A stretch of 64,000 bases of DNA, taken from positions 1 to 64,000 of the forward strand of contig NZ_KQ959965.1 in assembly GCF_001553035.1 (NCBI RefSeq). The letters are read 5' to 3'. The stretch is from Gemella haemolysans. GTDB lineage: Bacteria; Bacillota; Bacilli; Staphylococcales; Gemellaceae. A model generated the notes under the pieces. It was not told the DNA's origin, did no database searches, and saw only the letters and a program-made list of their open reading frames with translations. Position 1 is the first letter of the stretch. The number at the start of each line of letters is the position of its first letter. A program made the position numbers and the translations under genes. Shown one piece after another: positions 33,742-39,184 of this stretch.

Positions 33742-34488
33742 GGTATGAATAAAGGTTCTAGGGATAATTCGAAAGATATATGTCTAGAGTTTGCTGAAAG
33801 GGATACTAGGTTTAAGTATATTAAGCAAGAGAATGGAGGACTTTGAGCAGCTAGAAATGCGTGCAAAGGGAGAGTTTATTATTTTCATAGATGGAGATGA
33901 TTTTATTAAACCTAATTATTTGGAAGAATTATATCACGTTTCATTAAAAAATAATTCTGAAGTTGTTATAGGAAGTTATAAACAATTTAATGAAGAAGAT
34001 ACTAAATATTATATTCATATATTTGATTATAGAGAAGAAAATTATATAAATAAAGAATTAATTGAAAAAATATCTTTATTAGAGAGAAAAGGTTTGGAAT
34101 TTCAGCCAACTTGGGAAGTTTATTCCATAGAAGGTTATTTGAAAATGTAATGTTTCCTGTTGGTAAAAATATAGAAGATACTCGAACTAATTATAAATTA
34201 TATCTGGAATCTTATAACTCAACTTATATTCATAAAGATTTTTATGTTTACAGAATAAGAAAAGGTAGCTTGAACGATGAAATGAATGAGAAATTATTAG
34301 TCGACATATTAGAAGCCTTATTGGAGAGAATAGCTGTTTTGAGTTTAATTGGAATAGATATTTCTGAAGAAAAAGTGAACTTAATAGATAGGCTACAAAT
34401 CCGCTGTTTACAGGCTAAGGAAGCAGGTTTAGAAGATACTGAAATTTATCGAAGATGTACAGAGATTCTTTATTTAATTGCAAGATAA
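33742..34488 (+). pseudogene. Decayed family 2 glycosyltransferase
   Basis: Remnant of a GT2 enzyme in at least three pieces. Frame 1 from 33745 reads GSRDNSKDICLEF...IKQENGG, then hits TGA where relatives have Ser (GGLSAARNA). After a frameshift near 33856 it continues as RAKGEFIIFIDGDDFIKPNYLEE..., which has the DxD metal site. A second frameshift near 34112 leads to GSLFHRRLFENVMFPVG...YVYRIRKGSL to 34488. The N-terminal 30 or so residues (the VIIPVYN part) are missing, cut at the suf terminator. Clearly inactive. Confidence 0.85.
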
Positions 34489-36015: not shown

Positions 36016-37176
36016 ATGGTAAGAAATAACTTCAATAATAAGTTTAAAGGAGCTATTGATATTTTAAAGAGATTTAATCAAAATGGCTATGAGGCATATT
36101 TTGTTGGTGGTTGTGTAAGAGATTATTTGTTAGGTGAAGATTTTTCTGATATTGATATAACTACAAATGCCCTACCTGACGAAGTAAAAAAGGTTTTTCG
36201 TAAGAGTATTGATACAGGAATTCAGCATGGAACAGTAACAATCTTAGTTAATGGTGATAGTTATGAAGTCACTACATTTAGAACTGAAGAGGACTATGCA
36301 AACCATCGTTCTCCTGAAAAGGTAGAGTTTGTAAGTAATTTACGAGAAGATCTTGATAGACGTGATTTTACAATTAATGCTATGGCGTTAGATTATAAGG
36401 GGAAGTTATTCGACTATCATAACGGAGACAATGATTTAAGTTCTAAAATTATTCGCACTGTAAATAATCCTAATGAGAGATTTTATGAGGATGCCTTAAG
36501 AATGTTAAGAGCGTTTCGTTTTTCTTCTAAGTTAGGTTTTGAAATAGAGAATAATACATTAGATGCTATTAAGAAAAATGCAGAACTTATAAAATTTGTA
36601 TCTATAGAACGTATTGTAAACGAATTTAAAAAACTTTTAGCAGGAAAAGGTAATTTAAAGAGTTTAGAATTATTAATAGATAGTAAGCTTAATTCATATA
36701 TTCCATTTTTTGAAGAGGTTAATGAGATTCAAGATTTATCAAGTTATTCATTCTGTCAAAGTTTGTATATTCTATCAATTATTAACGATATTTCATTTGA
36801 AAAATTAAAATTCTTGAAATTGTCTAATAAAGAAATAAAATTAGTAAAACAATTTGATTTAATAAATCAGGAATTTAAAAATAATACTCAAATAGAACTA
36901 ATTTTATATAAATATAATCGTGAAGATATTAAGTTTATATGTGAATATTTTGGTTATGATAAAGAAAAAAATATTGATGAACGTATTCTAACTATTAATT
37001 CATTTAATGATATTGATATTACGTCACAAGAAATCATAAGTACTATTAATAAAAATCCTGGTCCTTGGATAAAAAGTATAACATTAGAATTGGAAAAAGA
37101 AATTTTATTAGGAAGATTAAATAATAATAAAAAAGATATACTAGATTTTTTGTCTAAATTAAGAGATAATATATAA
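36016..37176 (+). CDS. cca: CCA tRNA nucleotidyltransferase
   Basis: Adds or repairs the 3' CCA of tRNAs, 386 residues. Seen: AYFVGGCVRDYLLGEDFSDIDI with the catalytic DxD, RTEEDYANHRSPEKVEFV, RDFTINAMALD and FYEDALRMLRAFRFSSKLGF (class II CCA/poly(A) polymerase motifs). It opens a unit matching the Bacillus order cca-(birA)-dinG-asnS-dnaD-nth, with birA and panBCD absent. Confidence 0.95.
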   Translation: MVRNNFNNKFKGAIDILKRFNQNGYEAYFVGGCVRDYLLGEDFSDIDITTNALPDEVKKVFRKSIDTGIQHGTVTILVNGDSYEVTTFRTEEDYANHRSPEKVEFVSNLREDLDRRDFTINAMALDYKGKLFDYHNGDNDLSSKIIRTVNNPNERFYEDALRMLRAFRFSSKLGFEIENNTLDAIKKNAELIKFVSIERIVNEFKKLLAGKGNLKSLELLIDSKLNSYIPFFEEVNEIQDLSSYSFCQSLYILSIINDISFEKLKFLKLSNKEIKLVKQFDLINQEFKNNTQIELILYKYNREDIKFICEYFGYDKEKNIDERILTINSFNDIDITSQEIISTINKNPGPWIKSITLELEKEILLGRLNNNKKDILDFLSKLRDNI

Positions 37177-37204
37177 ATAATTTGAAAGTGAGGTGAGAGA
37201 ATTT

Positions 37205-39055
37205 ATGGATAGATTATTTTGTATTGTTGATATAGAATTAACTGATGATAAGGAAATAATTCAATTTTCTGCAACAAAGCTTGATAAAAGTTTTAATGAA
37301 GTTTCATCGATAAATTACTATATTCAACCTAAAAAGCCTGTATCTACTTTTGTGACTGAATTAACGGGAATAAGTAATGAGATGCTGGAAGATAAGAAAT
37401 TTTTCGAGGAAGTTGCTGATGATTTATATGATTTTATTAAAGATGATATTCTTGTATGTCATGGTCTTCCTTCAGATTATGTTATTTTAAAGAAAAGATT
37501 TCATGATGTTGGAATTCAATACAAGGCAATACAATCGTTAGATACTGTCGAATTAGCAAGACTATTTTTACCGTCACAAAATAGTTTTAGACTTTCGGAT
37601 TTATCGAATTCTCTTGACCTTTACACCGGTGAAAGATATCATAATGCAGCAGTAGATGTAAAAGTAACAGTTAAATTGTTTATTGAAATAGCAAAGAAAA
37701 TTTCTTTTATTAGTAATAATAATTATAAAAAGATTGAAGATTTATTAGAAAAAATTGATATTAATATGTATATGTTTTCTAAATTCTGTAGAGAAAACAT
37801 AACTAACACAAAAGATAAATTTAATGATTTCTTGTATTTCGAAGGTGTGGATTATAGAAAAGTAAAATTTAAAACTAGACCTACAAATGACAAAGAAAAA
37901 TTTATACTTTTTTCATCAATAGATGAAGAAGAATACGTTAGGAAATTTAATATTTCTGACTTTGTAATTATAAAGAAAAAAAGTTCATATGTACCATTAA
38001 ATATATTCTCACTTTTTCCTAAAAAAGAAGATCCTAATCTAGATAAACTATTAATAAAATTATACGTATGGATATTAGAAACAAAAACTGGTGATTTTTC
38101 AGAACTTAATTTATTATATCTGGAAAAAATGTATATTGAGGGTATTAAAAAAGGTGTTTCTATTAGCTCAAAATCATACTATTTTGATGAAAAGAATAAA
38201 GCTGCTCAGAGTTGTAAGAACATCATAACGAATTATGAATCTATAGAATATTTAATAGAGAGTGATATTTTTAGAAATCATACATTTATTTTTGAACATA
38301 AAAAAATATTAGGTCGAGAATTAGACTCTATAAATACTAAAGACTATTACTATAAAAATGTAATTATAGAGTTAAATGTAGCAGTCTCTAAAAACTTAAA
38401 AAACAAGGATATTAGAGATTTAAGAAATAATATAGATGGATTGGTTAAATTTTTACATGAAATGTATATCTCAGAAAGTTTGTTTTTATATAATGATAGT
38501 TTAAGTTTTATATTACAGGATGTTGATGCTATACTTATTGATTTAAAAAAATATAAAGACGAGGTTCCGATTTCTTATAAATTTATGAAGAAATTGAGAA
38601 GTGTGCTAACAAATTCTAAGAATACATATAAATTTATCATATTAGATCAAGAAAACAGCTTGAAACTTACAGTTGTTAACGATAAAAAGGTTAAATCTTT
38701 AATTAATATAATCCATGCTAGAAAGCATAAGTATTTAAACTTGAAATCAAAAGCAAACTACTTATATTCAAATGGTGAAGATGAGTTAATTAATACAAAG
38801 AGTACTGAGTCAATTTTATATATTTTTGAAGGTAATAAATATAAGGATTTATATTTTAGTAAACGAGAGAAAAAAAGCTATATAAAATTTTATAATTTTT
38901 CTATTAAAGAAAATTTTAACGAATTATATAAAGATGTTAAAAAAAATAATCGTTTGACTTGTAGATGTTATGCAACGAAGGATATATTAGAATATAGATA
39001 CTATTTAAAAGATATTTTTGATTGTATAGTCATAATTCGTGATTTAGAACATTAA
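37205..39055 (+). CDS. DEDDh exonuclease-domain protein in the dinG position, no helicase motifs
   Basis: About 616 residues. The N-terminal 165 residues are a DnaQ/PolC-type 3'-5' exonuclease with all acidic ligands: D9 and E11 (VDIE), D91 (PSDY), and H146 and D151 (HNAAVD). In Bacillus-type DinG this domain is fused to a superfamily-2 helicase. Here residues 170-616 show no Walker A, no DEAH box and no clear helicase motif; the closest trace is DVDAILID. The part is Lys-, Asn- and Tyr-rich and looks degenerate or replaced. Start ATG 37205 follows GAGGTGAG; the in-frame GTG 37193 overlaps that site. Confidence 0.75.
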   Translation: MDRLFCIVDIELTDDKEIIQFSATKLDKSFNEVSSINYYIQPKKPVSTFVTELTGISNEMLEDKKFFEEVADDLYDFIKDDILVCHGLPSDYVILKKRFHDVGIQYKAIQSLDTVELARLFLPSQNSFRLSDLSNSLDLYTGERYHNAAVDVKVTVKLFIEIAKKISFISNNNYKKIEDLLEKIDINMYMFSKFCRENITNTKDKFNDFLYFEGVDYRKVKFKTRPTNDKEKFILFSSIDEEEYVRKFNISDFVIIKKKSSYVPLNIFSLFPKKEDPNLDKLLIKLYVWILETKTGDFSELNLLYLEKMYIEGIKKGVSISSKSYYFDEKNKAAQSCKNIITNYESIEYLIESDIFRNHTFIFEHKKILGRELDSINTKDYYYKNVIIELNVAVSKNLKNKDIRDLRNNIDGLVKFLHEMYISESLFLYNDSLSFILQDVDAILIDLKKYKDEVPISYKFMKKLRSVLTNSKNTYKFIILDQENSLKLTVVNDKKVKSLINIIHARKHKYLNLKSKANYLYSNGEDELINTKSTESILYIFEGNKYKDLYFSKREKKSYIKFYNFSIKENFNELYKDVKKNNRLTCRCYATKDILEYRYYLKDIFDCIVIIRDLEH

Positions 39056-39098
39056 ATTATAAAAATTAAAATACATAATTAAAAAAATATTAAATTTA

Positions 39099-39107
39099 TG
39101 ATATAAT
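39099..39107 (+). promoter_or_regulatory. Extended -10 promoter of asnS
   Basis: TGATATAAT, TATAAT at 39102-39107 with TG one base before. No T-box or other leader element is seen between it and asnS. Confidence 0.6.
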
Positions 39108-39184
39108 ATAAATAGTTTTTATATAACTATGAATATTAAAAATTTTTGAATACAATAATAATTTAAATTAGGAGGGACTTCAAG

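Follow-up and report, generated by a model that had tools for sequence, protein, structure and literature searches.

The locus described here raises the question of what remains of ExoDinG, in which Bacilli have a DnaQ-type exonuclease fused to a DinG helicase, once its helicase motor is gone. In the window, by which we mean the whole 64,000-nucleotide stretch of Gemella haemolysans DNA analysed (from a genome assembly of 1.89 Mb that is 99.99% complete), the gene order is cca, the gene of interest, asnS, dnaD and nth, just as read by the initial annotation, which had recognized in it a dinG locus; cca and asnS also adjoin the gene in related Gemellaceae loci. The closest contigs in public records come from G. 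haemolysans (73% identity) and G. sanguinis (51%), in keeping with a Gemella genome.

Reading frame, locus and exonuclease domain

The frame is open from either GTG 37193 or ATG 37205 through the TAA stop codon at 39053–39055. ATG 37205 is the better start because a Shine-Dalgarno sequence, AGGTGA, lies about 8 bases 5' of it, overlapping the in-frame GTG, and residues are numbered from this ATG, with GTG 37193 as the longer alternative. The features of the gene are as follows, with the basis of each in brackets:

37205–39055, + strand: motor-less ExoDinG, 616 aa from ATG 37205 (open reading frame, alignment, start-site inspection)
37205–37708, + strand: DEDDh 3'–5' exonuclease with D9, E11, D91, H146 and D151 (Pfam, alignment, PDB match to the S. 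aureus DinG exonuclease domain)
37709–37900, + strand: rapidly evolving segment (dN/dS about 0.2–0.75) made up of a helical bundle and a variable linker (selection analysis, alignment)
37879–37880, + strand: approximate junction that lacks some 60 aligned residues, which in other ExoDinGs contain Walker A (alignment)
37973–37981, + strand: K257–K259, equivalents of the S. aureus DinG DNA-channel residues K336/K338 (profile match, alignment, PMC12345164)
38027–38152, + strand: pseudo-FeS (pFeS) remnant, motif LxxKLxVWxxETxxGDxxELNL (profile match, alignment)
38294–38305, + strand: E-H-K-K in place of the DEAH box (alignment)
38351–38617, + strand: shortened, helical Arch-domain remnant (alignment, AlphaFold2 model)
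38618–39052, + strand: vestigial end of motor domain 1 (MD1) and part of motor domain 2 (MD2) (alignment, structure alignment, PMC12345164)

The end of cca lies 28 bases 5' of the gene (window 36016–39055), and given this gap the two genes may be co-transcribed; asnS is preceded by a gap of its own, some 130 bases long and promoter-like in sequence. Elsewhere in the window, two overlapping open reading frames in different frames follow the suf genes (33791–34488), the first of which matches glycosyltransferase family 2, and the pair may represent a frameshifted or remnant glycosyltransferase.

The initial annotation had considered the DEDDh exonuclease complete, and this is borne out by a match to Pfam RNase_T (PF00929) with an E-value of 1.2e-22 and 81.6 bits, against a curated cut-off of 24, which together with the five catalytic residues places the domain in this family. 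These residues and H86, an additional substrate-contacting histidine with H90 as its counterpart in S. aureus DinG, are invariant in 14 of 14 Gemellaceae proteins (D9, E11, H86, D91, H146 and D151 are alignment positions 13, 15, 90, 95, 150 and 155).

Origin of the C-terminal region

Searched against Pfam, the protein yields the exonuclease only, the one other domain being DUF3560 with an E-value of 0.12, under its cut-off, whereas NCBIfam detects DinG in the N- and C-terminal halves alike. When the last 395 residues are searched by themselves, they match TIGR01407 (5.8e-11), NF005981 (PRK08074, 9.4e-8) and NF005569 (PRK07246, 2.8e-7). The full protein scores 162.8 bits against TIGR01407, below the curated cut-off of 547.7, and has the ExoDinG (TIGR01407) arrangement of an N-terminal DEDDh exonuclease fused to a DinG-type region. 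In the reverse direction, a profile of 14 relatives matches S. aureus DinG twice, once in the exonuclease (1.5e-40) and once in the helicase part (8zef, chain residues 300–618, i-Evalue 1.7e-6).

The predicted structure points the same way. An AlphaFold2 model of the whole protein, built from a 14-sequence alignment (pLDDT 88.5, pTM 0.84), retrieves two S. aureus DinG entries at the top of a Foldseek search (2.8e-31 and 6.5e-30, ahead of 2.5e-10 for the match that follows), and VIA-align superimposes it on 8zef with a Z of 30.8 and an rmsd of 5.5 over 509 residues (model 2–608, chain 1–787). Predicted by itself (pLDDT 86.9), the C-terminal part gives 35 Foldseek matches at E ≤ 0.001, all 35 of which are DinG, CasDinG, XPD or TFIIH/NER complexes with XPD. 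Its match to the DinG/XPD fold is partial (Foldseek 1.2e-12; VIA Z 9.4–11.3, rmsd 6.6–10.8), and we note that a VIA Z of 9–11 is modest, as unrelated rows reach 8.8, such that the family claim rests on the sequence profiles and Foldseek rather than on this score. The modest Z and large rmsd are as expected if the model represents a distorted two-lobe remnant.

Taking the profile matches, alignment and predicted fold together, the C-terminal part is a degenerate, shortened DinG helicase; a new or foreign domain is ruled out by the profiles and the DinG/XPD fold. The initial annotation had thus been right that a large domain is kept in frame, but not that this domain is of non-helicase origin, and the profile and structure comparison with DinG that it had proposed finds DinG while the motor motifs are still missing.

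The P-loop, DE[AC]H/DESH and QxxGRxxR patterns are absent from 14 of 14 Gemellaceae proteins, which upholds the claim that the region lacks Walker A and DEAH motifs and extends it to motif VI. Among six full-length ExoDinGs of other Bacilli used for comparison, the P-loop and QxxGRxxR occur in all six and DEAH/DESH in four. The three defining features of a DinG/XPD SF2 helicase motor are all lacking: Walker A is found in 0/14 Gemellaceae against 6/6 comparison proteins; a DEAH Walker B with its catalytic glutamate has given way to E or D followed by H, N or D; and neither motif VI (QxxGRxxR) nor a complete Helicase_C_2 domain is present. At the DEAH position, the IIDEAH of other ExoDinGs has become IFEHKK or similar, with the first position acidic (E or D) in 14/14 proteins and, throughout the family, H, N or D where the catalytic Glu would be. 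The protein also stops short of motif VI and of the segment with the principal DNA contacts in S. aureus DinG (K801–Y864), and has lost the equivalents of H428/H431.

What is left can still be aligned with the six ExoDinGs. The LIKSKxDY channel motif is present, its first lysine (K257) being kept in 13 of 14 Gemellaceae proteins and its second (K259) being K or R in 12 of 14, as is the pFeS stretch LLIWITETxxGDxxELNL, in a region that aligns without cysteine ligands and hence corresponds to the Bacilli-type pseudo-FeS domain, which has no cysteine cluster. The protein belongs to the ExoDinG lineage by descent but, because none of the three motor features is found, is very unlikely to be a DinG helicase by function.

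Distribution and selection in the Gemellaceae

The motor-less form is present in nine of nine Gemella genomes, where it is 614–623 aa long, and in five of the six genomes of a second Gemellaceae genus (one copy being cut by a contig end); no gene was recovered from the sixth, which is 66% complete. All 14 genes recovered from the two genera are thus of this form, answering the initial annotation's question of whether relatives share it, with C-terminal identities to the window protein of 33–84%. In just one of the nine Gemella genomes there is, in addition, a protein of 503 aa that begins with a DEDDh exonuclease and continues into a C-terminal part of uncharacterised type.

Helicase_C_2 (PF13307) occurs in 0 of 15 Gemellaceae genomes, compared to 142 of 142 other Staphylococcales searched, and DEAD_2 (PF06733) was likewise found in none of the 15. 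The initial annotation had raised as an alternative that an intact dinG lies elsewhere; this, like a YpvA at another site, is rejected, as neither PF13307 nor PF06733 occurs in the nearly complete window genome. Since both genera have the motor-less form while other Staphylococcales have Helicase_C_2, the change arose before the two genera diverged and is, among the members of the order sampled, unique to the Gemellaceae. No second motor-less case was seen among the matches listed for a class-wide sample of about 400 genomes, and the non-Gemellaceae ExoDinG frames of the class among these matches are all at least 819 aa long. Profile searches of 18 Bacilli genomes, all but one without PF13307, gave nothing but frames of PolC length and exonucleases as short as 235–389 aa, such that the checked Bacilli that lack Helicase_C_2 outside the Gemellaceae appear to have lost ExoDinG altogether.

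The remnant is not decaying. By a simple counting method, dN/dS over residues 241–620 is 0.048–0.091 in close pairs; dS is saturated in some of the pairs but not in the close ones. Unsaturated pairs give 0.065 and 0.091 for residues 241–620, compared to exonuclease values of 0.039 and 0.146, while the linker is less constrained (0.2–0.27). The values for cca and asnS, from these pairs and sister pairs, are 0.15–0.21 and 0.015–0.04. Residues invariant in 14/14 remnants include W289, E300, E389, L390 and N391 (ATG numbering). The pseudo-helicase is thus constrained about as strongly as the exonuclease, and because purifying selection on it is as strong, we take it to be functional.

Against its closest relative, the window is about 65–88% identical over a block that starts in the final third of cca and takes in the gene (36690–39140), between flanks of 89–99%, and dS is 1.7 for the gene compared to 0.28–0.35 for cca and asnS. 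This low-identity block between similar flanks, with its raised dS, suggests that recombination has replaced the allele in either the lineage of the window or that of its closest relative.

Function of an ExoDinG without a motor

Our preferred reading, to which we assign a probability of roughly 0.7, is that this is a Gemellaceae-specific ExoDinG with a pseudo-helicase, acting as an ATP-independent exonuclease whose shell serves as a grip for a strand or partner, or as a scaffold. Here, the descent, motif loss, family-wide fixation, purifying selection and predicted fold are the data, from which we infer the activity, substrate and scaffold role. Before the genus split, the Walker A block was deleted, the DEAH catalytic Glu replaced and the protein cut short ahead of motif VI. 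With the P-loop block and catalytic Glu lost, ATP hydrolysis and translocation are, from what is known of these motifs, very unlikely. The exonuclease would then degrade single-stranded DNA or RNA in the 3'–5' direction without ATP. The shell, composed of pFeS, the MD1 remnant with its channel lysines, Arch and partial MD2, would hold this strand, or else a partner, and position the 3' end, much like the degenerate SF2 helicase of XPF. In Listeria DinG, the DEAH mutant E465A retains exonuclease activity (PMC12774634), so that loss of the motor need not disable the nuclease. Residues K336 and K338 of S. aureus DinG lie along the MD1/pFeS channel and are required for unwinding (PMC12345164). Their equivalents are retained here, and the simplest reading is an exonuclease without a motor whose shell would still lead a single strand towards the active site. 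However, the strongest DNA contacts of S. aureus DinG, K801, F804, F823, R858 and Y864 (PMC12345164), fall in the missing part, so the grip on nucleic acid is probably weakened, and selection on the remnant does not tell nucleic-acid binding, protein binding and structural support apart.

Given this selection, it is reasonable to suppose, as the initial annotation did, that the domain may have acquired a new role alongside the nuclease, but a kept substrate-binding role fits the data equally well. In its strongest form, a crosslink-repair nuclease-helicase would have become an ATP-independent RNA quality-control exonuclease with the pseudo-helicase as an RNA- or protein-docking platform, which we regard as possible but unlikely. 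Similarly doubtful is the broader proposal that the pseudo-helicase docks a protein partner or a specific RNA, making the enzyme a dedicated RNA-processing or quality-control exonuclease on, for instance, pre-rRNA or, given the cca neighbour, tRNA precursors. The strong selection on the remnant, a surface that is greatly changed on a kept fold, the action of Listeria DinG on unprocessed rRNA (PMC12774634) and the position of the gene directly 3' of cca in the Gemellaceae loci read all speak for such a role, although the cca neighbourhood belongs to the usual dinG locus and is thus weak evidence, the conserved channel lysines point to the ancestral binding role, and the present data single out no partner or RNA. 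The window genome also encodes RNase R (RNB domain), so the motor-less ExoDinG is not its sole possible 3'–5' exoribonuclease.

DEDDh domains in fusions are often packed against neighbouring domains. A structural relic required for exonuclease folding, with no binding role, would accord with the S. aureus exonuclease being joined to MD1 by a hairpin and helical bundle (PMC12345164); we nevertheless consider this improbable, since DEDDh domains such as DnaQ fold by themselves, and 395 residues at dN/dS 0.05–0.09 with 14/14-invariant positions exceed packing needs. It is more improbable still that ATP is hydrolysed through a divergent nucleotide site, as the acidic first DEAH position in 14/14 proteins is set against outright deletion of the Walker A block, a catalytic Glu turned H, N or D, and a missing motif VI. 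Least probable of all is an assembly error or recent pseudogene, for which the missing motifs and nothing further could be cited, and which is rejected by the same intact frame in 14 genomes of two genera, diverged in their C-terminal parts and under purifying selection.

Returning to the motor-less exonuclease with a selected shell, its nearest known counterparts include the ExoDinG of Bacilli, represented by S. aureus DinG (8zef/9ii8; TIGR01407 dinG_rel), which shares the locus, the DEDDh exonuclease, the order exonuclease-MD1-pFeS-Arch-MD2 and the channel lysines, but has 897 aa to the 616 of Gemella, which lacks the Walker A block, DEAH, motif VI and main MD2 contacts. Crosslink repair and mitomycin resistance in S. 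aureus require both nuclease and ATPase (PMC12345164), and Gemella therefore either lacks this role or performs it otherwise. L. monocytogenes DinG, an exoribonuclease on unprocessed rRNA (PMC12774634), keeps the P-loop and DEAH motifs that the Gemellaceae protein lacks, yet its E465A form, active without ATPase, is the state that the Gemellaceae appear to have fixed. XPF/ERCC1 works in a similar way, joining a nuclease to an SF2 helicase that has lost the motifs for ATP binding and the DEAH box yet remains necessary, its removal lowering cleavage and the domain being required for full cleavage (PMC6320978), although the nuclease is non-homologous (ERCC4 rather than DEDDh) and the helicase comes from a different branch. 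In pExoDinG, as described in a review of DinG subgroups, one half of the fusion is also catalytically dead, but in reverse, with a dead exonuclease and a live helicase (PMC11981726). A text search of that review and its ExoDinG section gave no mention of Gemella, and a literature search for Gemella DinG found nothing relevant.

Reports on ExoDinG disagree on whether it is a helicase, and on whether it serves in DNA repair or in the quality control of rRNA. DinG was reportedly described in an earlier study of S. aureus as a helicase evolved into a nuclease; work from 2025 revised this view of the S. aureus protein, but it fits the Gemellaceae. These bacteria thus offer a natural separation-of-function ExoDinG, in which the exonuclease and a selected-for shell were kept and the motor dropped, and the Gemella protein could show which ExoDinG functions need no motor, as a bacterial parallel to XPF.
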